Source of the DNA: Methylococcales bacterium
GTDB taxonomy: Bacteria > Pseudomonadota > Gammaproteobacteria > Methylococcales > Methylomonadaceae
Assembly (NCBI GenBank): GCA_023145835.1
Contig: JAGLDH010000039.1
Span: 1 to 43,460, forward strand
DNA length: 43,460 nt
Direction: 5' to 3'
Of this stretch, positions 11,101-24,983 are shown piece after piece; position 1 is the stretch's first letter; each line of letters begins with the position of its first letter. Both the position numbers and the translations under genes were made by a program. The notes under the pieces were generated by a model. The model ran no database searches and was not told the origin of the DNA. It saw only the letters and a program-made list of their open reading frames with translations.

Positions 11101-12666
11101 CTATTGAATAAGTTCATAGTTAATGACATCAATCCATTGATCCTTACCACCACCAGCAGGGTGATATTGCATAATAACTGAATATGCATTCCCATTATTT
11201 AAATCTGTTACTCTAGGAATGATAACTTGTTTGTTTTTTGGGTTATATGTAGCTTGAAAAGCATCACTGTCTTCATCAACGCTTAATGATCGTAGGTTTG
11301 ATAAACCAAACATTAAGTTATTCTCTTTATTAGCATTTCGAGTAACTGGTTTTTCTAAGCTTAAATTAGCAGAAAATAATTGATCAACAATACGTAGTTT
11401 GGGAATCATCAGTTCACCAATATTCATCGCATAAGTAGCAGACTTTGCTTTTGCTTCTTCTGATAATAATGGATTAAGCCCAGTCCCTGTGATTTTAATA
11501 GAATATTGATCGTCACTTTTTGGAAAGACAAATGAAGACTCTTGTGTTGTCGTATATTTTTTAGGTTTAAATTGAATATTGCCATCACTGTCTTTACCAT
11601 CTGGAGCCTGTCCTATCACATTTAATCCTGGCTCATGTAAAACAACTGAGCCATTGCCACATGACTCAGAACCAGCATCTCCTTTTAATGTCGATGATAT
11701 GGCAATCAAATAATTTTTGGCTCCATCTCCAACACCTATATCAACTTTATTTGAAGTATCAAAACATGGATCAACAATACCAATAAGAGCCCCATCAAAA
11801 GCACCTGTTCTGTAATTTAAATACATGTGATTAGAACTTCCATTTGTTCCTGTAATAATCTGAGTTCCACTTTCATCTATTGTTGAACCTGTATCATCAA
11901 GCCAGCGACTAAAAATATATCTTTGTTCTTCCATTTCCTGAGTTAATTTGTCGCTATCAAATACATAAAGAACCCAGCTTTTTTTGCCAAAACAACTACT
12001 ACCCTGTGGGCACACCTCAAGTGATACTATTTCATTGCCTGAACTTGCTAGCTTATACCAGTCTTTATCTCCAGAATGGTGTAAATGACCTTTGATATTT
12101 CTACCTGAGTTTAAAGGCGTTGCTTGAGCCGAACGATTATTAAACTCAACATCAACGTTATCATAAGGTTCATCAACTGGTGCTTGAAATACTGTATTTC
12201 CATCTGCATCAACTGGATTACCAATAATTTGTACACTCAATTTTGCTGAAGCACTTTGTCCAGATATAGCAATATAGGTATACAAAAATTCATCTGTTAC
12301 AACATCTCCCACTTTAAGATCAGTAACACTAGATGAATTTGCATAAAGTGTATAAGTAAAACTCCCATCAGCATTTAGTACTAAAAAACCATATTCACTC
12401 ACAGGAGAACTTATCAACTCAACAAAATTCCCATTCAGGTCATTAGTAATAACACTTCCTTCAACGACAGAAATTTTGTTAGGAACAATCGTAATGTGGT
12501 CGTTAGCTGCAATAAGAAACTTATCTGGTTCCACCTCTTGTTCAGATACTGTTGATTGAGTTAGATCAGGTTTAGATCCCGGTTGAGTAGGAAAGCTAGC
12601 TGCCAAAACTGTTGTTGAACAGAATAAAAGTAAAGGGATTGACAAAGGTTTAATTGCTTTATGCAT
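11101..12666 (-). CDS. exported protein with VCBS/cadherin-like and PPC-like regions
   Basis: Predicted secreted or surface protein of 521 residues. A signal peptide spans about 1-22 (hydrophobic core, cleavage after VLA). Residues about 50-150 read like a VCBS/cadherin-like repeat (ADGSFTYTLYANSSSVTDLK). Residues about 165-340 carry GHLHHSGDKDWYKL, typical of bacterial pre-peptidase C-terminal (PPC) domains, with four cysteines (VCPQGSSC, PC, SCG) that could form disulfides. The rest is beta-rich and unassigned. It has no protease motif and no recognised sorting tag. It is downstream of the capsule-export genes but separated by an AT-rich region and terminator, so it probably has its own promoter. 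Function unknown; adhesion or matrix association is a guess. Confidence 0.75.
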   Translation of the reverse strand: MHKAIKPLSIPLLLFCSTTVLAASFPTQPGSKPDLTQSTVSEQEVEPDKFLIAANDHITIVPNKISVVEGSVITNDLNGNFVELISSPVSEYGFLVLNADGSFTYTLYANSSSVTDLKVGDVVTDEFLYTYIAISGQSASAKLSVQIIGNPVDADGNTVFQAPVDEPYDNVDVEFNNRSAQATPLNSGRNIKGHLHHSGDKDWYKLASSGNEIVSLEVCPQGSSCFGKKSWVLYVFDSDKLTQEMEEQRYIFSRWLDDTGSTIDESGTQIITGTNGSSNHMYLNYRTGAFDGALIGIVDPCFDTSNKVDIGVGDGAKNYLIAISSTLKGDAGSESCGNGSVVLHEPGLNVIGQAPDGKDSDGNIQFKPKKYTTTQESSFVFPKSDDQYSIKITGTGLNPLLSEEAKAKSATYAMNIGELMIPKLRIVDQLFSANLSLEKPVTRNANKENNLMFGLSNLRSLSVDEDSDAFQATYNPKNKQVIIPRVTDLNNGNAYSVIMQYHPAGGGKDQWIDVINYELIQ

Positions 12667-13042: not shown

Positions 13043-15286
13043 CTATTTATAATCATATTGATAAATATAATTACTATACCCAGATGTACCTAATGTTACA
13101 TCATTAAAAACGATGCCTTTGACTTCTACATTATTCTGTTTTAATCGTTTAGCACTTTGCTCTAATTCTCTTAGCGTATGTTCACCAGATTTAATAACCA
13201 TTAATGTTGCACTGGCTAAACGTCCGATTATACAAGCATCAGTTACAGCTAATACAGGAGGTGAATCAATAATAATCTGATCATATTCTTTGCTAAAGCC
13301 TTCTAACAAACTAGCAAAACGTTCGTGTAACAATAATTCCGAAGGGTTGGGAGGAAGATCCCCAGTAGGAATAAAGTCAATACTTCCCTCCGGTGTCTCA
13401 ATAGTCCGAATGGCGTCTGCAGTTTTAATCTTTTGTGTAATCAGGCCTGACAATCCATTTTCTCGCTCAACACCCAAGCTTTTATTAATAAACCCTTTAC
13501 GTAAATCAGCATCAATCAACAATATTTTTTTGTCAGAACTTGCTAAAACAAAAGCTAAGTTTGTTGATATAAATGTTTTACCAATACCAGGACTTGGTCC
13601 GGTAATCATAATAATATTATTCTTTGCTTCTAAAAATGCAAAGTGTAGCGTTGTACGTAAGCTTCGTAAGCTTTCTATAGCTAAATCTTCATTATTATCT
13701 ATTGCGAGTATAGAAAACGAATTGGTAAATTGCTTATTTTTAGATTGTAATTTATTTGATTTTTTCTGAAAACTACTATGAGGAACCGTAGCATAAACAG
13801 GTATATTAAGATGTCTCTCAATAATATCTGGATCTTCAATACCTCGTCTCATTGCTTTTCGGATAAAGGCGATGGCAACACCCAACAAAACACCTAAAAT
13901 AAATGAAACGACTACAATGAGTGGTTTTATTGGTTTTATTGGCAGTTTGGGTTCAACAGCATGATCGATAATCCTTACATCACCAACGGTACCAGCCTTA
14001 GCAACCTTTATCGTTTGCAAATGATTTAAAAGTGTCGTGTACAACTCAGAATTAACTTGAACATCTCTAGACAGTCTTAGAATCACTTGTTGTGTTTCTG
14101 GAAGCTCAGTAATTGCCTTACTATCCTTCCTCATTTGAACGTCTAGTCTATTAATTTGCTTATCGATAGCAACCACAGATGGATGTGATGAAGTAAAACT
14201 ACGGCGTAATTCATCTCTTTTTTGCTGTAGAAGTGTCATTTCAGTCCTTTTTTGAACCACTCCTTCCAATATACCTTGTGTTTCTATCTTTAAATCTACG
14301 GATCCTTTTTGTAATCTATATTCATTTAATGCGGTAGTTGCTGCATCTAATTGATTTTTTATCATTGGAAGTTGCTTATCTAAAAATTCCAATGTATTTT
14401 GAGCTTCTGCTGATTTTTGTTCAACATTCAATCGTACATAAATATTAGCAATTTCATTAAGTATCTTCATCGCCAAATCTGGAGATTCTGATTCTAGGGT
14501 GATACTAATAATTCCAGTTCCTTTTCCTTTTTCTGATACCGTAAAATTCTCATTGATTTCCTCAATTGCATCCATATGGGATCTTCTTGAAACAATAAAA
14601 GAAGTATCTGGCCTAGCTTTTAATAAGGATACAAATAATCTAAATTCAGTATCTTTTCCTTTAATTTTTTTACTGACTTGATAACCTACTCGACCATCAG
14701 CAACAAACTGATTATTCTCATCGAAAACTTTATACAGCCCTTTTTTACCCGCTATCAATATAAAGGGTTTACCTATCCAATCGAAGGGAACATTAAAAGT
14801 TTCAATTTTAATTTCTTCACCACCCCAAGCATTTTCAGAATAACCAAATAATGGAGAAGAAATTTTATCTTTATTGCGTAATTGAAAACTTCTAGCAACC
14901 GCCTGACCTAAAACAGGGAAATATTTAGCTTCAGCTGTAATTTCCATATTTAAACTTTTAACAGCTGCTCCTAAAACCTTCCTAGATTTAAGAATTGATA
15001 TTTCAGCTTCTATGGGAACTTTAGCACCTAATAATGCTTCCATTGGTTCCAAAGCACCTAAAGGCTGAGACGATTCTTCAACCTGTAACATAGCATCAGC
15101 TTTATAAATCGGAGTACTAAGTAACGCTTTAGCTAAACCGATGATGACAGCAATTATAACGACCGTAATAATTAACCATTTATTATCTAATAATACTCCA
15201 AGTAATTCCCTTACATCCACTTTTTCATTATTTTGATTCTGATAATTATCAAGTGCTTGATCGTTATTATTTAGTTGGTCTGTCAT
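13043..15286 (-). CDS. wzc: Wzc-like polysaccharide co-polymerase / BY-type tyrosine autokinase
   Basis: Inner-membrane bacterial tyrosine kinase that controls polymerisation and export of capsule or exopolysaccharide with Wza and Wzb. A Wzz-type periplasmic domain lies between two membrane segments (about 36-56, and about 445-465 before the cytosolic part), with long coiled-coil segments in the periplasm. The cytosolic kinase has Walker A GPSPGIGKT at 563-571, Walker A' LLIDADLRKG and Walker B IIIDSPP. The last eleven residues hold five tyrosines (737, 740, 742, 744, 746), the autophosphorylation cluster. The length of 747 is normal. It is the last gene of wzb-wza-wzc; a 287-base spacer with strong inverted repeats separates it from wza. 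Confidence 0.94.
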   Translation of the reverse strand: MTDQLNNNDQALDNYQNQNNEKVDVRELLGVLLDNKWLIITVVIIAVIIGLAKALLSTPIYKADAMLQVEESSQPLGALEPMEALLGAKVPIEAEISILKSRKVLGAAVKSLNMEITAEAKYFPVLGQAVARSFQLRNKDKISSPLFGYSENAWGGEEIKIETFNVPFDWIGKPFILIAGKKGLYKVFDENNQFVADGRVGYQVSKKIKGKDTEFRLFVSLLKARPDTSFIVSRRSHMDAIEEINENFTVSEKGKGTGIISITLESESPDLAMKILNEIANIYVRLNVEQKSAEAQNTLEFLDKQLPMIKNQLDAATTALNEYRLQKGSVDLKIETQGILEGVVQKRTEMTLLQQKRDELRRSFTSSHPSVVAIDKQINRLDVQMRKDSKAITELPETQQVILRLSRDVQVNSELYTTLLNHLQTIKVAKAGTVGDVRIIDHAVEPKLPIKPIKPLIVVVSFILGVLLGVAIAFIRKAMRRGIEDPDIIERHLNIPVYATVPHSSFQKKSNKLQSKNKQFTNSFSILAIDNNEDLAIESLRSLRTTLHFAFLEAKNNIIMITGPSPGIGKTFISTNLAFVLASSDKKILLIDADLRKGFINKSLGVERENGLSGLITQKIKTADAIRTIETPEGSIDFIPTGDLPPNPSELLLHERFASLLEGFSKEYDQIIIDSPPVLAVTDACIIGRLASATLMVIKSGEHTLRELEQSAKRLKQNNVEVKGIVFNDVTLGTSGYSNYIYQYDYK

Positions 15287-15419
15287 TAGCTTGGTTAATT
15301 GTAGAAGTTTATATTAAAAATATAAATATAATATAAATCAAATAAATATAGATTTATACCTTTCGAACAAGATGGGTCTCTTAATGTATAAAATTCAATT
15401 TAAAGAGAGTTATTATTAG

Positions 15420-15443
15420 AGCATTATTAGTTTCAATAATGCT
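15420..15443. repeat. 9-bp inverted repeat in the wza-wzc spacer
   Basis: AGCATTATT (15420-15428) and AATAATGCT (15435-15443) are perfect reverse complements around a 6-base loop. It lies in the mRNA leader of wzc, about 135 bases before the start codon. There is no T tract after it on the minus strand. Confidence 0.6.
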
Positions 15444-15477
15444 TGTAAAGATAAGAATAGCTTTAGATTTTAAAAAT

Positions 15478-15556
15478 GCAACCACTCAATTTTAAGTTTT
15501 GTAAAATAAGACAAACTATTCCTATTCTACAAAACTTAATTATATTGAGTAGTTGC
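15478..15556 (-). terminator. long two-part hairpin between wza and wzc (terminator or attenuator)
   Basis: The outer arms GCAACCACTCAA and TTGAGTAGTTGC (one mismatch) flank inner arms AAGTTTTGTA / TACAAAACTT, together a roughly 79-base interrupted inverted repeat. Read on the minus strand it starts 18 bases after the wza stop and is followed by ATTTTTA. It could lower wzc expression relative to wza-wzb by partial termination, or stabilise the upstream mRNA. Confidence 0.65.
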
Positions 15557-15573
15557 TTAACGCTTTAATATTA

Positions 15574-16773
15574 CTATTTAACAATAGGGTTAAAAGATGG
15601 AGATGAGTCAAATACATTTAACAAATCAACTGTAGGTTTAACTTGTTGGATGATTTGATTCCAGCGTCTTCCTTCAGCACGGTTTATATAAACAACATCA
15701 CGCGGATGTAAAGGAAATCTATCTGCTAATAATAATGCGTCGGGTGATTTAGCATCTAAAAGAAAAATCTCAGACTTACCAAGACCATTTCTAAAAACAA
15801 AAATTCTAGCAGGGTCTGATTCTTCTTGATCTGCGCCACCACCCTCACTAATTGCTTCAGTTAAAGTCATACGTCCTTTATTCATATACACGCTACGTGA
15901 TCTAGCAGAACCTGTCCCGGATCCTGCTGTATCCCCTAATACAAAGACTTTATTAAATTCTCTATCAGGCACATTCAGCACATCACCACTTTGAAGTAAA
16001 ACATTTTGACTTGTATCACCACCTTCATATAGAGCTAATAAATTAATACTATATGTTTTATCATCTCTTGTTAAGGTAATATTTCGTCGATCAGACTCTT
16101 TTGTTACACCACCGGCTTGATTGATTGCCTCTAATACCGTTAATGGTATATCTTTAACAAGTTGAACACCAGGAACTTTAACTTCTCCAACCACAAAAAC
16201 GCGTTGACTACGATAATCTGCTACTCGTACATCAAGTTGAACTCGTTCAATATATTTAGCTAACTTACGTGTTAATTCTGCACGTATTTCCTCTACAGTT
16301 CGACCTGCAGCCTTTATTACACCCGCATATGGAAAAAAGATATTTCCATCTTCTCCAACAATATTACCATTACCTGAACTTGTTGCAGAACGAAACTCTC
16401 CAGCAGGGATAGTCAGTTCAGGGTGATCCCAGACTGTAATCGTCAAAACATCACGGGGTCCAACTAAATACTGTGTCTGTCTTTTTTTCTCAGGAACACC
16501 TTTAATAGTATTTGAGCCTATTCGATAATTAAAATAATGATTAGCTACATTATCAGGCCCTAAGCTTCGGTTATTAAAGTTTTTTTCTATATCAATGACA
16601 ACTTGAGCTGTTATCTCTTTAATATTAAGTTTTTTCATGACAGCTTTGTTGTTTTTAACAACCGGCATGTCAACACTTGATTCATCAGATGTACCCTGAT
16701 GCATACCAGGTACAACAGAGCAACCTGACAACCCCAGAGAAATAAATAATAATGTTAGTATTTTAATTCGCAT
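15574..16773 (-). CDS. wza: Wza-like outer-membrane polysaccharide export lipoprotein
   Basis: Outer-membrane channel for capsule or exopolysaccharide. The N-terminus is a lipoprotein signal with lipobox LSGC, acylated at C18. A Poly_export region (LVGPRDVLTITVWDHPEL, about 105-122) and then SLBB repeats follow (VFVVGEVKVPGVQLV, about 194-208; a second near FNKVFVLGD). Length is 399 versus about 379 for E. coli Wza. It follows wzb by 142 bases and precedes wzc, forming the classical export trio although in a different order from E. coli. No glycosyltransferase or Wzx/Wzy gene is in the window, so the polymer is unknown. Confidence 0.94.
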   Translation of the reverse strand: MRIKILTLLFISLGLSGCSVVPGMHQGTSDESSVDMPVVKNNKAVMKKLNIKEITAQVVIDIEKNFNNRSLGPDNVANHYFNYRIGSNTIKGVPEKKRQTQYLVGPRDVLTITVWDHPELTIPAGEFRSATSSGNGNIVGEDGNIFFPYAGVIKAAGRTVEEIRAELTRKLAKYIERVQLDVRVADYRSQRVFVVGEVKVPGVQLVKDIPLTVLEAINQAGGVTKESDRRNITLTRDDKTYSINLLALYEGGDTSQNVLLQSGDVLNVPDREFNKVFVLGDTAGSGTGSARSRSVYMNKGRMTLTEAISEGGGADQEESDPARIFVFRNGLGKSEIFLLDAKSPDALLLADRFPLHPRDVVYINRAEGRRWNQIIQQVKPTVDLLNVFDSSPSFNPIVK

Positions 16774-16915
16774 TTCTTATCCTAAATTTAATAAAAAAAC
16801 TATTGTTTTGGTAACTATTTCAATTACTTTAAAAAAATGTAGTCTAAAGCACAAGCATTTAGATGGTAATTAATACTAAACCATCTAAATTCAACCAGTA
16901 AGAAAGAACCTTCAA

Positions 16916-17356
16916 TCAGATTCTTTTCTGCCAATCAGCAACACCTTGATCAATTAATTGCAATGCATATTCAAAAGCATCTCTTTCTTTTTTATAGGGG
17001 TCTGGAATATCAAACCCACCCCATTCACCTAACTTAAAAACTTTCCCTTTTGCACTATTTTCCTTATTTTCTATATGTGTTTTATGCCCAGACTCCATGA
17101 CTAAAATTAAATCTGACTTCCTAATTATAGTTGAATTCATCTGTGTTGCTCGATAATTAGAAATATCAATACCTCGCTCTTCCATAAGTTGTATCGCAAT
17201 TGGATCAGGCTTATGTCCAACTAAAGCACCAATTCCAACAGAACTGACAAAATAATCTTCTTTACCTGATTTCATCAAAACATCCTTTAAAATTGCCTCG
17301 CCCATTGGACTTCTACAGATATTTCCCACACAAACAACGAGTATATTGTTAAACAA
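16916..17356 (-). CDS. wzb: Wzb-like low-molecular-weight protein tyrosine phosphatase
   Basis: Dephosphorylates the tyrosine tail of Wzc-type kinases and so controls polysaccharide assembly. The P-loop CVGNICRS near the N-terminus fits C-x5-R-S, and the general-acid DPY is near residue 122. The length of 146 is typical. The start is a TTG at 17354-17356: the family begins with MFNNILVVC-like sequence exactly here, and TCCT at 17365-17368 (AGGA on the minus strand) gives an 8-base spacing. An ATG eight bases upstream is out of frame and opens only a four-codon frame (ATG AAA ATT GTT TAA) that overlaps the TTG. It is the first gene of wzb-wza-wzc. Confidence 0.92.
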   Translation of the reverse strand: MFNNILVVCVGNICRSPMGEAILKDVLMKSGKEDYFVSSVGIGALVGHKPDPIAIQLMEERGIDISNYRATQMNSTIIRKSDLILVMESGHKTHIENKENSAKGKVFKLGEWGGFDIPDPYKKERDAFEYALQLIDQGVADWQKRI

Positions 17357-17656: not shown

Positions 17657-19258
17657 TTAATAATAAACACGTAACAAATCTTGAATCTCCTGAAATTCTT
17701 GCAAATATGGCTTTGCAATTTCATGATTAGCCACAATGACAATTAAATCATGTGAGAAAACTGACGTGTTATACCAATTAAAACTACCATCTATGACAAT
17801 GTGTTCGTCAATAATGCAGTATTTTGAATGAATAGGTGAATAAGGTACCGAATGATCATCTTTTCCATAAACTAATCCTACTGCAACATCAGCAGATTTC
17901 AACCTTTCGATAACAGGTAAAAGTGGGCAATTCAATTCGTCTTCCATAGATCGCTCTATACCAACTTTTCCTTGTCTAGCCAAATGCCCATTTAGTAAAA
18001 GATGTACATCTACACCTCTGTTTTTAGCATTAATTAAAGCACAAATAACACTGTCATCATGATCGCCTAACAATTCACCAATCAAAAATAAAGTAATTTT
18101 AATAGAATAAGTAGCACGCGTTATTTCTGCAAGAATAGCGTGATGAGGAAGGAAGTTATTTCCATTTTGTATTTTGTGTCTACCAAAGGTATAGAGCAAA
18201 TTAAAATGACTATAAGGGTCTACTCCATATTGTTGAATAACACCGCCTCGTTGACTTTGAAATATATTATCTAGTAATCGACAGACACCTTTTGAATGAA
18301 ATGTCATTCCAGATTCCCAGTTGGCCCACCAACGACCAAAAGTAATATTAAACGATCCCATAATACAATCTTCATCATTAAAAATAATGAATTTAGTATG
18401 CATATCAGGTTCTACTTCAATCAAATGGTGGTCTGGACTACAAATAACCCCAATTAACTCAACACCTGCACGTTTGAGACGAGCATAACTATCACTATTA
18501 GTAAGCGTCATTTTTCGCCAATCAACAATACATTGAATCCATACGCCTTGTTCACTAGCATGAATTAGATGTGATACAAAATCTTCATCATCAATACAAT
18601 CTACGCTGACTTTAATCGTACATAACCGGTCATGATTTTCATGCTTAGTTTTTATTACTTTATCTATTAAATGATGAATATAGCTTTTTGGATGATATGG
18701 ATGATCAGGCTGGCCTTTAGTAAATTTAGGGACTAATTCAAGTGATTCAAAGTGGTGATTAAACCAATCTACATCGCATTGCAATTCATGATCATTTAAT
18801 TCATACGTTCTATAATGGTTGTAAGTAGAATTATCGGCAGAAATCTCATAGTATTGAGGCTCATCAGAGTTGCTCTGTAATTGAGGCCAATCCATATAAA
18901 TATATTCTTTTTCTGAAGCAATAGAATGCTCATCAATATGGACAATAAAAGAAAATTTAACACAGTTAACTTGACCAAAGTTACTGGAAAAGGGATGGAT
19001 ATAAAAATCACGGGTACTTCTCGTATGTCTATTCCATTCGATATTGTAAGCATCTGTATCTACAACATAGGTTTCACAAATATTATTGTTGCTATAGACC
19101 TTTAAGATTACTTTTAAGTTGACATGAGCTCCCTGAAATACTTCAAAATTAATCTTCCCCCAACGAATAAAAAACTCATCATTAAAGTCATTAACTCTTG
19201 CGAAAGTGCCACCTAATTCACCTCTAACGGGTATGGCATAGTCTTCTGCTATTTGCAT
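17657..19258 (-). CDS. phospholipase D-like (HKD) protein with beta-rich N-terminal domain
   Basis: A two-HKD phospholipase D superfamily protein of 533 residues (nucleases, phospholipases, transphosphatidylases). Motif 1 is H287-x-K289 with GSFN at 301-304, but the canonical Asp of HxKx4D is Asn294. Motif 2, H477-x-K479-x4-D484 with GSFN 491-494, is complete. Residues about 25-125 form a beta-rich domain I do not recognise; no signal peptide or membrane segment is visible, so it is probably cytosolic. GAGGTGGTG just before the ATG is a good ribosome site. It is the last gene of the glucan/EEP cluster, 100 bases after the EEP gene. The spacer has three GTAAC repeats (19323-19340). Substrate unknown. 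Confidence 0.85.
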   Translation of the reverse strand: MQIAEDYAIPVRGELGGTFARVNDFNDEFFIRWGKINFEVFQGAHVNLKVILKVYSNNNICETYVVDTDAYNIEWNRHTRSTRDFYIHPFSSNFGQVNCVKFSFIVHIDEHSIASEKEYIYMDWPQLQSNSDEPQYYEISADNSTYNHYRTYELNDHELQCDVDWFNHHFESLELVPKFTKGQPDHPYHPKSYIHHLIDKVIKTKHENHDRLCTIKVSVDCIDDEDFVSHLIHASEQGVWIQCIVDWRKMTLTNSDSYARLKRAGVELIGVICSPDHHLIEVEPDMHTKFIIFNDEDCIMGSFNITFGRWWANWESGMTFHSKGVCRLLDNIFQSQRGGVIQQYGVDPYSHFNLLYTFGRHKIQNGNNFLPHHAILAEITRATYSIKITLFLIGELLGDHDDSVICALINAKNRGVDVHLLLNGHLARQGKVGIERSMEDELNCPLLPVIERLKSADVAVGLVYGKDDHSVPYSPIHSKYCIIDEHIVIDGSFNWYNTSVFSHDLIVIVANHEIAKPYLQEFQEIQDLLRVYY

Positions 19259-19358
19259 ATCACCACCTCATTTTGTGCTCTAACGTTTGTAAACCATTTT
19301 TCAACTCAATTTCAAATAAAATGTAACGTAACAACGTAACTAAGTTCTTTCTAGATTA

Positions 19359-20873
19359 TTATTTATTTTCTTTTGGTTCAAATGTCATAAAGTAACCACA
19401 ATGATCAGATACTTGCCCATAGTCATCATCAGTAAAAACTATTTTTGCCGATGTTACTTGTAGGCCACTATTTTTGTTCATAAAAACATAATCAATGCGA
19501 TAGTCTTCTGATAATAAATATTGCCAATGGCCATCATTAACTCTGAATATTTTTTCAAAAACACCTTTTTGATTTACTTCTAAATATTGATCGTCATATT
19601 CATTAGAGTTAACCACTAATTCATAGCCTTTTGAGCCTGCTGTAATATTAAAGTCACCACATAATAGTGTTGTTTTAACATCGTCAGCCTGGTTTTCTAT
19701 TGCCCATTCATGTAATCGTTGAAACTGCTCTTCAAAACCATCTTCTATCCAGCTTAAATGTGCAGAAAAGACATTAATTACGCCTAAAAAGGGAACGTGT
19801 ATACGTGTCATGATAACTTTTCTTGAGTGTATGCTATAAATATCCTGACTATTTGATACATATTTTGATTGCTGATTAGAGATTGGGAACCGACTTAAAA
19901 TAGCAACTCCTTCTCTATATTTATCAAAACCCAAATGCGCCCAATCAGTATATATGTTAAATACTTGAGGTAAGCGTTCATTTATAATTCTGGCGGAATT
20001 GGATGGCCAATCCCCTTCCCCATTATTCCAAAATTCAGCAACTTCTTGAAAACAGACTATATCAGCATCTAATTCATCTATTGCTTTCGCTATTTGTGTG
20101 AATTTACTGTCTTGATCTTTTTCTTGATAACAATGTAAATTCAGAATCAATATTTTTAACTGATCAGGTTGTAAACAATAATTATTTCCTACGTTATTAT
20201 CCCAAATAACCTTATTATCACCTTCACAACTAATAATATACTGTAATTTTAATGCATCACCTGGATCAATCTGCCCTGTCCATAATTGGATTTCATATTG
20301 ATTTGGATTACGAGCATTACTTTGCCGCTTATTATTCCAATAATTTCTGTTATATTCACAGTTTGATAAGTGCGTAGTTTTCCAATTATCAACCGTCCAA
20401 TGCAGTATTACTTTTTCTGCATTAATTGTGGAGTCAACAGCTACCGTAACGGGGATAATGGACTGACTATCATTTAAGTTAACTTGAAAATCAATATTCT
20501 GTAATTGATTAATATCGGTTAATTTAATACCAGAGTCAGCTTCACTCGAATAATTAAGTCCATTGTTGTTGTCCCAATATTCTTGCTCTAAAACTCTATA
20601 ACGCAAACCAAATTGAATATTACCTGGTAGTGAAAAATCATCGGTTAATGTTAATTTTATCTGTGCATGCCAAAATTCTTTATCATGCCCTTGCATACTA
20701 TAATATTTTGCAGACAAATCTTGCCATTTCCCCTCTTCTCCCGCCCAAACAACGTCAATTTGCTTGTCAAAGTTAAGATTCTCTACCAGCATAAAAAAAT
20801 TCAAGTTCTGCTGAACTTGATTATTTTTTCTGCTAATTAAATTTTCTACATAAAGCAGTTGAATAGCCGACAT
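19359..20873 (-). CDS. EEP-family phosphodiesterase/phosphatase with tandem CBM21-like starch-binding modules
   Basis: The C-terminal half (about 238-497) is an endonuclease/exonuclease/phosphatase domain with all signature residues: N246 (LNLHCYQ), E277 (CFQEV), H372 (SAHLSW), D407/N409 (GDFNI), D461 (RIDYVF) and D490-H491 (SDH). The N-terminal half holds two modules, each ending in a WDNN-G-NY motif (99-108 and 224-232), the hallmark of CBM21/53-type glucan-binding modules. There is no signal peptide. The gene sits 28 bases after yceI and upstream of the PLD gene, in the run that begins with the GH57 branching enzyme. EEP enzymes cut nucleic acids, lipids or inositol phosphates. The attached modules suggest the enzyme sits on a glucan (inference). 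Confidence 0.85.
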   Translation of the reverse strand: MSAIQLLYVENLISRKNNQVQQNLNFFMLVENLNFDKQIDVVWAGEEGKWQDLSAKYYSMQGHDKEFWHAQIKLTLTDDFSLPGNIQFGLRYRVLEQEYWDNNNGLNYSSEADSGIKLTDINQLQNIDFQVNLNDSQSIIPVTVAVDSTINAEKVILHWTVDNWKTTHLSNCEYNRNYWNNKRQSNARNPNQYEIQLWTGQIDPGDALKLQYIISCEGDNKVIWDNNVGNNYCLQPDQLKILILNLHCYQEKDQDSKFTQIAKAIDELDADIVCFQEVAEFWNNGEGDWPSNSARIINERLPQVFNIYTDWAHLGFDKYREGVAILSRFPISNQQSKYVSNSQDIYSIHSRKVIMTRIHVPFLGVINVFSAHLSWIEDGFEEQFQRLHEWAIENQADDVKTTLLCGDFNITAGSKGYELVVNSNEYDDQYLEVNQKGVFEKIFRVNDGHWQYLLSEDYRIDYVFMNKNSGLQVTSAKIVFTDDDYGQVSDHCGYFMTFEPKENK

Positions 20874-20901
20874 AGTATGCTCGATGAATAAAATATATTT
20901 T

Positions 20902-21489
20902 TTACTTTTTAAATATAAAATTTGCTGTCACAGGAATCACTGTACTAATTGATGGCAACTTTGCAAGTACTTGCAACATTTTAATACCTTTTTCAAATTC
21001 ATAATCACGCGCATTAATAATAATGGGTTTTATAGTAGAAACTAGCAATTTATTATCAGTTAAAGAAGTAATGCGCATATCTGCATCAATTTTTTGCTGT
21101 TGTCCATGAATAGATAGATTAAGTTCTAAATTTTGTGAAAAAGACTCACCACTTTTCAATCGATTAATCTTATCAACATCCACTTTTGTCGATACCGTTG
21201 CTTTAGGAAACTGAGCAATCTCAAACAAGACCTTTTTCATTCTATCATCGCGCTTAGGAATTTTTGTATCAACACTCGATAAAGACACGTCTACAGTGAC
21301 ATTTCCATTGTCTTTTAAAGCCCCTTCTATACTTTTAAAGGTATGAACTTCACCAATAGATTGTTTTTTTATCGAAATAAAATTAAGTGATGAATCTGCA
21401 TTATTTAAAGTCCAGTCTGCGGAAACAGAAAAAGCCATACTTGTTAACACTAAAGCACAAAAAGTTTGATTTAATCGAGTAGTTTTCAT
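20902..21489 (-). CDS. YceI-family periplasmic protein
   Basis: The YceI fold is a lipocalin-like beta barrel that binds polyisoprenoid or similar lipids; the physiological role is usually unknown. The protein begins MKTTRLNQTFCALV with a signal peptide cleaved after SVSA (about residue 24), then ADWTLNNADSSLNFISIKK, typical for YceI. I chose the ATG at 21489 because GGGAG lies 6 bases upstream and the signal peptide starts there; a longer frame to 21570 adds 27 residues in front and no better signal. Length is 195. It sits 82 bases after the GH57 gene and 28 before the EEP gene. It is the only clearly exported product in this run, which is odd. Confidence 0.92.
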   Translation of the reverse strand: MKTTRLNQTFCALVLTSMAFSVSADWTLNNADSSLNFISIKKQSIGEVHTFKSIEGALKDNGNVTVDVSLSSVDTKIPKRDDRMKKVLFEIAQFPKATVSTKVDVDKINRLKSGESFSQNLELNLSIHGQQQKIDADMRITSLTDNKLLVSTIKPIIINARDYEFEKGIKMLQVLAKLPSISTVIPVTANFIFKK

Positions 21490-21571
21490 TAATAACTCCC
21501 TAGGTTTGTTAAATTCCCCGTTAACAAAAATGCTGGCTAGGGGAAGTAATAGCCTTTTTCTAATCCTCAAT

Positions 21572-23170
21572 TTATATTACTGGCTTATAATCACGATAAT
21601 CAATATCTGGAAAAACGTTATCCATCGTTTCTAAAGCAAGTAAATAATGTTCATTTATCTTATTATTACGAATACATTCATGTAAATAATTAAATCTGGC
21701 CAAATAATCATTTATTTTTTTAGTAGCATAGTCAATCGTTGTTCCTGATTTTAGAATAAACGGCCAATCAGATGCTTGCGCGAGTAATACTGTTCTAAAA
21801 GCTTGGTTTAATGCTCTTTTCTGTACAGGTAAAACACTAACACCGGTGAAATCAACAGCAAGCTTCTCCATTTCTTCAGCCATTTCATGTAAAAAAGGAT
21901 AAATCCAGTCATTATCTTCATTAATCCAATAACTAGAGTAACCTTGATCGCCCCAGGTTGATGATGAGGGAACAGATACTTGATGATTTTTTTGCTGTTT
22001 CAAATATTCTTTACAGCTTACTAATTTTATTTGATTATCTGGTTCACTTGCTAGCCTTAGTACACTTTCTAGCCAATGTATTCCTTCTGCCCACCAATGA
22101 CCAAATAACTCAGCATCATAAGGTGAAACAATAACAGGAGGTCTATTCATTTTTCTGGATAGTATTTTTATTTGTTGCTCCCTTTTAGCAATAAAATCCT
22201 TTGCATCTTTATATGCTTTACGTTTTGCTTTTTTAGGGTCGTAAATCTTTTTTTCTTGCCCTTTTCCAGTGACTCGATGATACTTGATTCCAGTATTTAT
22301 TCTTGTTTTACCATCAAGAATATAAGGAGCAACATCTTCCAAATCCAACTCAAAACCTATATCACTATAGTATTCTCGATAATTAATATCTCCAGGGTAA
22401 CCTTCTTGAGCGCTCCAAACCTGATGAGATGATTCAGGGTCACGCGCAAACGCCATTACTTTATTTCCACAATCAAGTGGTGCGTAAATACCATTCTTAG
22501 GTAAATCACTCGCATCAACCACACCATGAGTATCAATAAAAAAGTAGTTGATTCCTGCATCGTCAAGCAATAACTCCAAACCAGGATAGTATCCACATTC
22601 TGGTAACCAAAACCCAGCAGGAGAAAACCCCATAATAGATTTAAAGGTATCAATACCAACATTTATTTGATTACGTACAGCTATTTCACTGATATTAAGT
22701 AAAGGCAAAAAACCATGGGTTGCAGCAGTTGAAATGAGTTCTAGTCGACCGGAAAAATAATGTTTTTTAAATGCCTTTAATATATCAAAATTATAATTTT
22801 GATATATCTGGCGAACATGAATAAAAAACCGACGATATAATCGAGCTAATTTTTGATATTCTTTTTGATTCTTTGTTCTAATAATTTCTTTTTCTGCAAG
22901 TTCAATCCGAGTATTTAAATAAGTCAGATAACGTGTCTTTAATAATTCATCACCTAACATCATAAGCAATGTAGGTGATAATGAGAGTGTTAACCGATAA
23001 TCGACATTATCTTTTGATAAATTATCAAGAGCATTTATTAAGGGAACATAACATTCTGTTATTGCCTCAAAAAGCCAAACTTCTTCAAAAAAACTTTCAT
23101 ATTCAGGATGTCTTACATACGGTAAATGTGCATGAAGAATAATACTGAGAAATCCTTTTTCTGTACCCAC
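21572..23170 (-). CDS. GH57 1,4-alpha-glucan branching enzyme (DUF1957 type)
   Basis: Glycoside hydrolase family 57 protein that makes alpha-1,6 branches in glycogen-like glucan. Conserved regions: HAHLPYVRHPEY (13-24), catalytic nucleophile E191 in GFWLPECGY, and general acid D352 in SPYDAELFGHWW. These match the DUF1957-type branching enzymes of Thermus and Thermococcus. Length is 532. No signal peptide, so cytosolic. It follows the DUF4912 gene by 5 bases, so the two are one unit, and leads into yceI. No glgA, glgC or phosphorylase gene is in the window. The motif assignment is strong; branching rather than amylase activity is inferred from the family. Confidence 0.93.
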   Translation of the reverse strand: MGTEKGFLSIILHAHLPYVRHPEYESFFEEVWLFEAITECYVPLINALDNLSKDNVDYRLTLSLSPTLLMMLGDELLKTRYLTYLNTRIELAEKEIIRTKNQKEYQKLARLYRRFFIHVRQIYQNYNFDILKAFKKHYFSGRLELISTAATHGFLPLLNISEIAVRNQINVGIDTFKSIMGFSPAGFWLPECGYYPGLELLLDDAGINYFFIDTHGVVDASDLPKNGIYAPLDCGNKVMAFARDPESSHQVWSAQEGYPGDINYREYYSDIGFELDLEDVAPYILDGKTRINTGIKYHRVTGKGQEKKIYDPKKAKRKAYKDAKDFIAKREQQIKILSRKMNRPPVIVSPYDAELFGHWWAEGIHWLESVLRLASEPDNQIKLVSCKEYLKQQKNHQVSVPSSSTWGDQGYSSYWINEDNDWIYPFLHEMAEEMEKLAVDFTGVSVLPVQKRALNQAFRTVLLAQASDWPFILKSGTTIDYATKKINDYLARFNYLHECIRNNKINEHYLLALETMDNVFPDIDYRDYKPVI

Positions 23171-23175
23171 TTGTG

Positions 23176-23775
23176 TTACCGTCCTTTACCAGAATAATTA
23201 GTACGCTCACGATGAGTTTTTTTTAATTTTGACTGTTCTTTAATTTTAAATTCAATATTATTGTAAGGAATAATATAATCAGTAAAACTTATTTTTTTTA
23301 ATTTTTTTTGTCTAGAGAAACAGGCTGTATTATTTGAGATTATTAATGGAATAAAGTTTTTGCTTGAATTTAATTCACCTATCTTTGCGAAATAAGTCTC
23401 TTTTCTATTGATGATAGGTAAACTAATCAGTTGCTTTGCTTGAGAACCTTGAATCTTAAATTCAACCAAAGGCTTTGATTTAACTACATCACCTCTTACT
23501 TCTTGTGAATAAATTCTAAGCATCTTGTTATCACTTGTATTAGACGAAGATGGTGTTTTATTTTGACTTTCATCGTCATCAAAATTCCAATAGGCATACA
23601 AATGCTGAGGATCTATAGATAGAAGAACAAGTTTTTTATTATTACTTGATATTCTAGGAGCAAAATACAGACTAATGTTCTGACTTACTTCAAGTAACTC
23701 TTGTCTAGAAAGCGCAGGAGTTACTGATTTAGAAGATGTAAACCTTTTAACACTGTCATACGTAGTTTCAGGCAT
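23176..23775 (-). CDS. DUF4912 domain protein
   Basis: A 199-residue cytosolic protein. Residues about 45-165 match the DUF4912 pattern (LLSIDPQHLYAYWNFDDDE near 57-75, then a beta-rich region with YFAKIGEL). The domain's function is not established. It is the first gene of the run and ends only 5 bases before the GH57 start, and I recall DUF4912 genes beside GH57 genes elsewhere, so a role in glucan binding or regulation is likely (inference). The tail is very Lys/Arg-rich. It is divergent from the TIGR03790 gene across a 152-base spacer that must hold both promoters. Confidence 0.85.
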   Translation of the reverse strand: MPETTYDSVKRFTSSKSVTPALSRQELLEVSQNISLYFAPRISSNNKKLVLLSIDPQHLYAYWNFDDDESQNKTPSSSNTSDNKMLRIYSQEVRGDVVKSKPLVEFKIQGSQAKQLISLPIINRKETYFAKIGELNSSKNFIPLIISNNTACFSRQKKLKKISFTDYIIPYNNIEFKIKEQSKLKKTHRERTNYSGKGR

Positions 23776-23927: not shown

Positions 23928-24983
23928 ATGCCCGTATTTTGTTTTAAAAAACTTCTGTTAATCATTATATTTATTACATTTTATTCATCCACATCGACTG
24001 CACAGATTAATCCATTGTACACCCCATTACCTGCTATAGATGCTCGTCAGTTAGGCATTATTGTGAATGATTTTGATCCTATAAGTATCCAAATAGCCAA
24101 CTATTATCAACAACAACGAAAAATACCCACACAGAATATTATACGTATCAGCTTTAATCCTATGTTTCAAGTCCTTCCTGTTGCAGACTTTCAACATATA
24201 AAAAAACAAGTTGATAAATTAACACCCCCTCATGTTCAAGCTTATGCCTTAACATGGTCAGTCCCTTTTCGAGTCGGTTGTATGTCCATCACAACTGCTT
24301 TTGCAGCTGGTTTTAATGAGAAATTTTGTGCAACAGGTTGCAATAAAACATTTCCTTCACCCTATTTTAATACTAAAAGTAGACAACCTTATACTGATTT
24401 TAAATGGCGACCTACGATGGCACTTGCAGGAAAAACCTTTAAAGAAGTTAAGCAACTTATAGATCGTGGTATAGCATCTGATTATAGCTACCCAACTGGT
24501 ACTGCCTATTTATTAGAAACCTCAGATAAACAACGAAGTGCTCGAGCTGTATTTCATCCTCAAATTACGGAAGTATTTAATGGTTTATGGGAAACAGTCT
24601 CCATTGAACAAGATTTTATTGAAGATAAGCAGGATGTAATGTTCTATTTCACAGGTAAAATTCACATCGATAAAATATCATCAAATCATTATTTACCTGG
24701 AGCCGTTGCAGATCATTTAACATCAACAGGAGGTATTTTATTTGGAAGCACACAAATGAGTAGTTTGAAATGGTTAGAGGCTGGAGCTACAGGTAGTTAT
24801 GGGGCTGTTATAGAGCCTTGTAATTTTGTTCAAAAATTCCCAAACCCTGGTGTTATGATGCATTATTATATTAAAGGAAATAGCTTAATTGAAGCTTATT
24901 GGAAAAGTGTTGCCTGGCCCGGACAAGGCCTTTTTATTGGGGAGCCATTAGCCAAGCCTTTCGCATACCCTCAACAGTTATAA
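23928..24983 (+). CDS. TIGR03790 family exported protein
   Basis: Member of the uncharacterised TIGR03790 family. A signal peptide covers about residues 1-25 (KKLLLIIIFITFY, cleavage near STA-Q). Then comes the family start LGIIVNDFDPISIQIANYYQQQRKIP (positions about 41-66, key words LGIIVND and YYQQQR). The C-terminal half has VADHLTSTGG, TGSYGAVIEPC and a final WPGQGLFIGEPLAKPF, which looks like a conserved catalytic or ligand-binding core similar to caspase-like or peptidase folds, though that is a guess. It contains several cysteines (GCMS, CATGC). Length is 351. It is followed 51 bases later by thiD on the same strand. Function unknown. Confidence 0.85.
   Translation: MPVFCFKKLLLIIIFITFYSSTSTAQINPLYTPLPAIDARQLGIIVNDFDPISIQIANYYQQQRKIPTQNIIRISFNPMFQVLPVADFQHIKKQVDKLTPPHVQAYALTWSVPFRVGCMSITTAFAAGFNEKFCATGCNKTFPSPYFNTKSRQPYTDFKWRPTMALAGKTFKEVKQLIDRGIASDYSYPTGTAYLLETSDKQRSARAVFHPQITEVFNGLWETVSIEQDFIEDKQDVMFYFTGKIHIDKISSNHYLPGAVADHLTSTGGILFGSTQMSSLKWLEAGATGSYGAVIEPCNFVQKFPNPGVMMHYYIKGNSLIEAYWKSVAWPGQGLFIGEPLAKPFAYPQQL

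Follow-up and report, generated by a model that had tools for sequence, protein, structure and literature searches.

The window analysed here, a whole contig of 43,460 nucleotides (JAGLDH010000039.1, our C179) within the 3.92 Mb assembly GCA_023145835.1 of a Methylococcales bacterium of the family Methylomonadaceae, carries a run of five genes whose conserved core is a pair: a protein of the endonuclease/exonuclease/phosphatase (EEP) family headed by two CBM21 modules, followed by a protein of the PLD superfamily with HKD-type motifs. These two proteins very probably make up a phosphoesterase pair dedicated to glycogen. A fuller reading, in which the co-inherited pair works on the intracellular glycogen of the methanotrophs of this family and most likely edits its phosphate, falls somewhat short of an even chance, and glycogen phosphate as the substrate, taken by itself, stands a shade lower. 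The five open reading frames (ORFs) of the run all lie on the minus strand:

23176..23775, minus strand: DUF4912 protein of 199 amino acids, first gene of the run (PF16258, 49.2 bits against a cut-off of 29.4).
21572..23170, minus strand: GH57 alpha-1,4-glucan branching enzyme of 532 amino acids with a GTG start (GH57, PF03065, and BE_C, PF09210, both over cut-off).
20902..21489, minus strand: YceI-family protein of 195 amino acids, counted from an internal ATG (PF04264).
19359..20873, minus strand: EEP-family phosphoesterase-type protein of 504 amino acids with two N-terminal CBM21 modules (CBM21, PF03370, in two stretches; Exo_endo_phos, PF03372).
17657..19258, minus strand: PLD-superfamily protein of 533 amino acids (PLDc_2, PF13091, and PLDc, PF00614, both over cut-off).

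The original prediction had described these genes as a run with gaps of 5, 82, 28 and 100 bases linking a glucan branching enzyme to two phosphodiesterase-type proteins. The gaps are exact when YceI is started at the internal ATG at 21489, and the link itself is supported rather than accidental, since EEP and PLD genes also lie near GH57 or DUF4912 genes in other genomes. Taken as one unit, the five genes stood only in part: the EEP-PLD pair is conserved, whereas YceI is a local feature, and the pair can also be found downstream of GlgB-GlgA or at a distance from glycogen genes. What survives of the earlier reading is therefore the tie to glucan genes, not a conserved unit of five.

Within the window's genome and 60 relatives, EEP was found in 24 of 61 genomes, all from the window's family, and in 0 of the 24 genomes from other families of the order. 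PLD follows EEP in 20 of the 23 neighbourhoods besides the window, and in the remaining three the contig ends. A scan of genome contigs with the EEP alignment gave at least 115 confirmed loci, the best 80 of which are the named loci considered below, their neighbourhoods having been called as ORFs and compared by blastp with reference proteins. Most of their titles belong to Methylococcales or methanotroph genera, and some read only 'Gammaproteobacteria' or 'bacterium' and were put among these by the EEP tree; the deviating titles are Pseudomaricurvus alcaniphilus (L112), Rhodoferax (L121) and Piscirickettsiaceae (L094). Of the 76 named loci with a continuing contig (L061, L101, L108 and L113 lie at a contig end), 70 have a same-strand PLD gene 1-713 bp after EEP; 66 of these 70 are full genes, and L078, L055, L057 and L058 were recognised by tblastn. 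The adjacent PLD is missing in L077, L087, L094, L104, L109 and L114; the genomes of L077, L109 and L114 have a full PLD at another place, and that of L104 has a fragment.

The same co-retention is seen when whole genomes are counted. Across 121 genomes of the family, EEP is present in 75 and PLD in 74, with both in 73, EEP only in 2, PLD only in 1 and neither in 45. The EEP-only genomes are G062, where EEP stops some 110 bases short of a contig end, and G104, which is 73% complete, and the PLD-only genome (G097) has a partial PLD with one internal stop. Of the 73 genomes with both, 66 have the two genes side by side on one strand and 5 have them on separate contigs; in G117 and G121 the distance between them is 17 kb and 1.48 Mb, respectively. 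The pair is present in 22 of the 29 sampled genera of the family, and a full PLD profile at 1e-20 was met in 1 of 369 genomes of the class, the window's own. Two loci from outside the usual titles deserve a separate mention: the pair of P. alcaniphilus (L112:8001-11133) has no adjoining gene of the glycogen reference set and was perhaps acquired by horizontal transfer, and in L121, a contig of a metagenome-assembled genome titled Rhodoferax, the pair sits on a long branch and could be either mis-binned or transferred.

Upstream of the pair, glycogen genes recur. The count was made on 79 EEP rows (L101 was dropped, its EEP being cut), of which 73 reach 600 bp or more upstream. Fifty of these 73 have, no more than 400 bp upstream and in the same orientation, either a GH57 branching enzyme (33 loci) or GlgA (17 loci), and 57 have at least one member of the glycogen reference set in the fetched stretch. 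Where GlgA is the neighbour, GlgB usually comes before it, and GH77, another GH57 and a GlgC-like gene are often nearby. On the EEP tree, a quick tree with many weak branches, the states GH57 branching enzyme, GlgA and none need 10 changes, the branching enzyme occurring on both sides of deep splits and most GlgA cases (15 of 17) falling in a single starred clade, which suggests that the pair persisted as its glycogen neighbour was exchanged or formed anew. At the level of family genomes, 63 of the 75 with EEP have the GH57 branching enzyme, against 8 of the 46 lacking EEP; GlgA is present in 112 of 121, with EEP in 73 of the 112 GlgA-positive and in 2 of the 9 GlgA-negative genomes (G004 and G101). 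These figures, like those of co-retention above, ignore shared ancestry.

The EEP protein consists of two CBM21 modules (residues ~1-116 and ~120-236) and a catalytic part (~238-501). PF03370 reaches 70.8 bits in total against a gathering score of 28.9, and its two stretches (20547-20819 and 20172-20483) pass it singly with 44.1 and 40.9 bits, so that what had been called starch-binding-like modules are two CBM21 modules. Both match each other with 95% probability in hhalign; the first matches the CBM21 of Rhizopus glucoamylase and the second the PP1 regulatory subunits 3B/3C. The motif WxNxGxNY is present twice, with WDNN at 100 and 224, its Trp being conserved in 40 of 46 aligned sequences at W100 and in 45 of 46 at W224. 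These residues correspond by motif to the Trp of PTG that, according to one study, matters for maltoheptaose binding, with the mutant also being less stable (PMC9287172). CBM21 looks rare in the window's phylum: the window's genome is the single positive among 299 sampled, and 0 of 14 control genomes have it.

The catalytic part scores 64.2 bits with PF03372 (cut-off 24.5), and N245, E277, H372, D407, N409, D461, D490 and H491 are invariant in 46 of 46 sequences, a set (N, E, H, DxN, D, DH) that we take to be catalytic. In the AlphaFold model (pLDDT 88.5), the best fold match of this part is 3teb (Z 31.1, root-mean-square deviation (rmsd) 2.7, 239 residues aligned), followed by a tie between 4c1r, the mannosyl-6-phosphatase BT3783 (Z 25.2, rmsd 2.9, 226 aligned), and Tdp2 (Z 25.1, rmsd 2.8, 216 aligned), with PDE12 and nocturnin with bound NADPH also near. 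The part is acidic, its net charge ranging from -24 to 0 with a median of -14 over the 46 sequences. Neither the EEP nor the PLD protein has a signal peptide by eye. A short EEP paralogue of ~284 amino acids exists in G035, surrounded by genes without match to the glycogen reference set, and the one such sequence scanned had no CBM21 match. As for signals in the DNA, a consensus scan gave 30 promoter-like sites against 36.5 in shuffles and 4 terminator-like sites against 2.3, which decides nothing about co-transcription. One of the terminator-like sites lies within the EEP frame, an inverted repeat with a T run at 20801-20820, on the minus strand in the first codons of EEP, and may be due to chance.

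The PLD protein comprises a mostly-beta N-terminal part (~1-150) and two PLD-like domains with HxK at 287 and 477. PF13091 covers two stretches with 121.4 bits against 27, and both H287/K289/GSxN301-304 and H477/K479/GSxN491-494 are invariant in 41 of 41 sequences; in the first HKD motif, Asn replaces Asp in 41 of 41 aligned sequences (window 18377-18379). Its AlphaFold model has a pLDDT of 78.8, with loops near both motifs below 50, and matches F13 (Z 22.1, rmsd 3.6, 310 aligned), 7e0m (Z 21.0, rmsd 3.6, 321 aligned), PLD3 (Z 19.9, rmsd 3.4, 321 aligned) and PPK1 (Z 18.4, rmsd 3.2, 286 aligned), with PLD4, Nuc and phosphatidylserine synthase also among the neighbours. More specific identities were rejected: the protein reaches 31.8 bits against a cut-off of 133 for DISARM DrmC (NCBIfam equivalog) and 17.8 against 290 for bacterial cardiolipin synthase (TIGR04265 equivalog), and tblastn gave no match in plasmid and phage collections that would mark it as plasmid or phage cargo. 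The N-terminal part was likewise set aside as a known starch-binding module, since four sequences gave no Pfam match at a threshold as loose as E 10, no PDB sequence match came up at E 5, and hhalign probabilities were only 0.0-0.1% with the CBM21 modules or DUF4912; the fold searches barely covered that part.

On evidence that is thin as to the substrate, two CBM21 modules in a glycogen setting favour the glucan itself. The modules, judging from their motif, would hold the EEP protein on the glycogen particle, where its conserved residues could form a metal-dependent active site hydrolysing a phosphate ester, and PLD, by the covalent-His mechanism of the superfamily whose motifs it carries, would act on the same or a linked phosphodiester. 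The two may cooperate, PLD opening phosphodiesters and EEP clearing the phosphomonoesters left by glycogen synthase errors, and such phosphate removal would let branching enzyme and phosphorylase work. That a bacterial glycogen phosphate-editing system is built from exactly these two enzymes, with PLD breaking phosphodiesters and CBM21-EEP removing phosphomonoesters on the granule, is a tentative proposal and more doubtful than the broader reading of which it is one form. Phosphate on glucan lowers the affinity of branching enzyme, as stated in another study (PMC13011383), which would explain the place of the pair beside that enzyme, and BT3783 (4c1r), a sugar phosphatase by its PDB title, is counted on the same side. 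Of the two functions proposed by the original prediction, glucan dephosphorylation is the better; a glucan-anchored nuclease or stress system had been the other, and nothing was found in favour of a stress role.

Several observations weigh against phosphate editing on glycogen. The nucleic-acid phosphodiesterase Tdp2 ties with BT3783 as a fold neighbour of EEP, and the nucleases PLD3, PLD4 and Nuc are near the PLD part; the fold neighbours do not decide between substrates. No mention of phosphate on methanotroph glycogen was found in the open-licence PMC literature. Moreover, 16 of the 73 named loci show none of the reference glycogen genes in the fetched stretch, and DNA-repair-type genes adjoin the pair in a few loci (RadA-like at L023:12249-13616 and L116:11229-12596, SbcD at L037:12683-13912, MgsA at L029:3358-4671). 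The association of EEP with GlgA is weak when taken alone (Fisher p 0.026, a value that ignores shared ancestry), and 39 of the 112 GlgA-positive genomes are without EEP, so that the pair is accessory. P. alcaniphilus has the pair with no GT5 GlgA at 1e-40, but with 7 GH13 matches, and the genome of L094 has EEP with no PLD match.

Among the alternatives, the one that survives best, though we consider it unlikely, is that the pair hydrolyses a soluble phospho-metabolite at the granule, for instance ADP-glucose or another sugar nucleotide, and thereby throttles synthesis. It would suit the 17 of 73 named loci with GlgA directly upstream, as well as the presence of nocturnin with NADPH and of PDE12 near the EEP fold, but a diffusing substrate would seem to have no need of glycogen-binding modules in tandem, and the joint retention of two enzymes would be left unexplained. 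Less likely still is a glycogen-tethered nuclease, with EEP and PLD parked on glycogen to degrade or repair DNA or RNA. Tdp2, PLD3, PLD4 and Nuc among the closest folds, the weak matches between the PLD part and the DrmC profile and the RadA-like, SbcD and MgsA neighbours speak in its favour; the median charge of -14 in the EEP catalytic part is mildly against a nucleic acid substrate, the DrmC score is far under its cut-off, and the 20 same-strand, mostly non-glycogen neighbours scanned were of mixed function with only one RadA-like, most other neighbours being unannotated. The functions met in that scan, where two genes were without match, include TerD, LytB, HemN-type, peptidases and cation transport, and a second common function among the neighbours was accordingly rejected. 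In one locus of G001 a cas2 gene (L028:5757-6086) lies ~4 kb from the pair.

An improbable third option makes PLD a transferase that attaches glycogen, or the primer for it, to a phosphate carrier, lipid or otherwise, from which EEP would release it. Among the fold neighbours of PLD are indeed two enzymes of transfer and not of hydrolysis, phosphatidylserine synthase and polyphosphate kinase, but the protein falls far below the cardiolipin synthase cut-off, and one lipid-type neighbour was met, an MGDG-synthase-like gene in L050, with no systematic search for lipid context having been made. That glycogen genes adjoin the pair by descent only, with unrelated functions, is very improbable: the best 80 of at least 115 loci come mostly from one order, where adjacency could be inherited, and the 16 loci without a glycogen gene would fit, but two different glycogen contexts (GH57 branching enzyme and GlgA), the CBM21 modules within EEP itself and the near-complete EEP-PLD co-retention stand against it.

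Four known systems come nearest to the pair. EEP-CBM21 couples a starch-binding module with a phosphoesterase-type domain whose fold differs from that of the eukaryotic glucan phosphatases laforin (CBM20 plus dual-specificity phosphatase) and SEX4 (dual-specificity phosphatase plus CBM), with which it shares the fusion of a starch/glycogen-binding module to a phosphatase-type domain in a storage-glucan setting. In contrast to those proteins, it has two N-terminal CBM21 modules, is bacterial, is paired with PLD, and is a phosphoesterase by prediction. No dual-specificity phosphatase domain was matched by Pfam in EEP or PLD, and therefore the pair is no member of the laforin/SEX4 group, but possibly a functional analogue and not a homologue. 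The PP1 glycogen-targeting subunits PPP1R3B/3C share with EEP a CBM21 having the WDNNxGxNY-type motif; there the module brings a separate protein phosphatase to glycogen, whereas in the window it is fused to the EEP domain. With BT3783 and other bacterial EEP proteins (4c1r, 3mpr, 3teb) the fold is common (Z 25-31), but the match is limited to the catalytic part (~234-502) at 19-29% identity, and their substrates are other or unknown. E. coli ybhP-clsB, presumably an EEP gene adjoining that of a PLD-superfamily cardiolipin synthase in a membrane-lipid setting, resembles the pair in arrangement, but the window PLD is far from a cardiolipin synthase by profile score.

A 2009 study of laforin and SEX4 calls the CBM of SEX4 of CBM21 type, reports both proteins to be absent from bacteria, finds in bacteria and archaea each of the glucan phosphatase domains but no protein with both, and deems a bacterial glucan phosphatase unlikely (PMC2714694). 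In the open-licence PMC literature nothing was found on CBM21 with 'endonuclease exonuclease phosphatase', on EEP-PLD pairing in methanotrophs, or on BT3783/mannosyl-6-phosphatase, and the first 300,000 characters of the review PMC11046441 never mention CBM21, phosphodiesterase or DUF4912. Each of the domain types is known; that literature yielded neither a single bacterial protein combining them nor the pairing. If phosphate editing is correct, the pair would represent a bacterial glucan phosphatase made from folds unrelated to laforin/SEX4, contrary to the published expectation. In any case it makes bacterial glycogen phosphate metabolism a directly testable question in culturable Methylomonas strains; the laboratory strain LW13, which is genetically tractable, carries the pair at L120.

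The remaining genes of the run are of uneven standing. The GH57 and BE_C domains of the branching enzyme score 126.5 and 106.4 bits, above their cut-offs, and the protein is below those of two lineage-specific NCBIfam branching-enzyme models (311 of 1000 and 303.9 of 920). Its motifs PEC at 190 and YDAELFGHWW at 351 presumably hold the catalytic Glu and Asp. The genome also has GlgA, GlgB and GH77 relatives and a GlgC-like gene on another contig, and the GH57 protein would therefore be a second branching enzyme; the names GlgC-like, Wzc, SoxYZ, ThiDE and RadA-like are presumptive. DUF4912 immediately precedes GH57 in many relatives, was present in 1 of 299 sampled phylum genomes (the window's own) and, among the 14 controls, in Synechococcus elongatus and Thermotoga maritima; only unrelated mentions were found in the open-licence PMC literature. 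YceI, whose N-terminus is signal-peptide-like by eye, had no match in any of the 80 named loci, 35 of them with GH57 within 800 bp upstream of EEP, nor in 23 unnamed loci, 7 of them with GH57. Seen in the window's genome only among the loci read, it was set aside as a working part and is probably not part of the system.

Elsewhere in the window, an ORF of 521 amino acids at 11101-12666 had no Pfam match at 1e-5, a divergent gene at 23928-24983 belongs to family TIGR03790 (249 bits against 67), and a Wzb, Wza and Wzc-like group at 13043-17356 shares the orientation of the PLD gene, which it follows at a distance of 300 bases.

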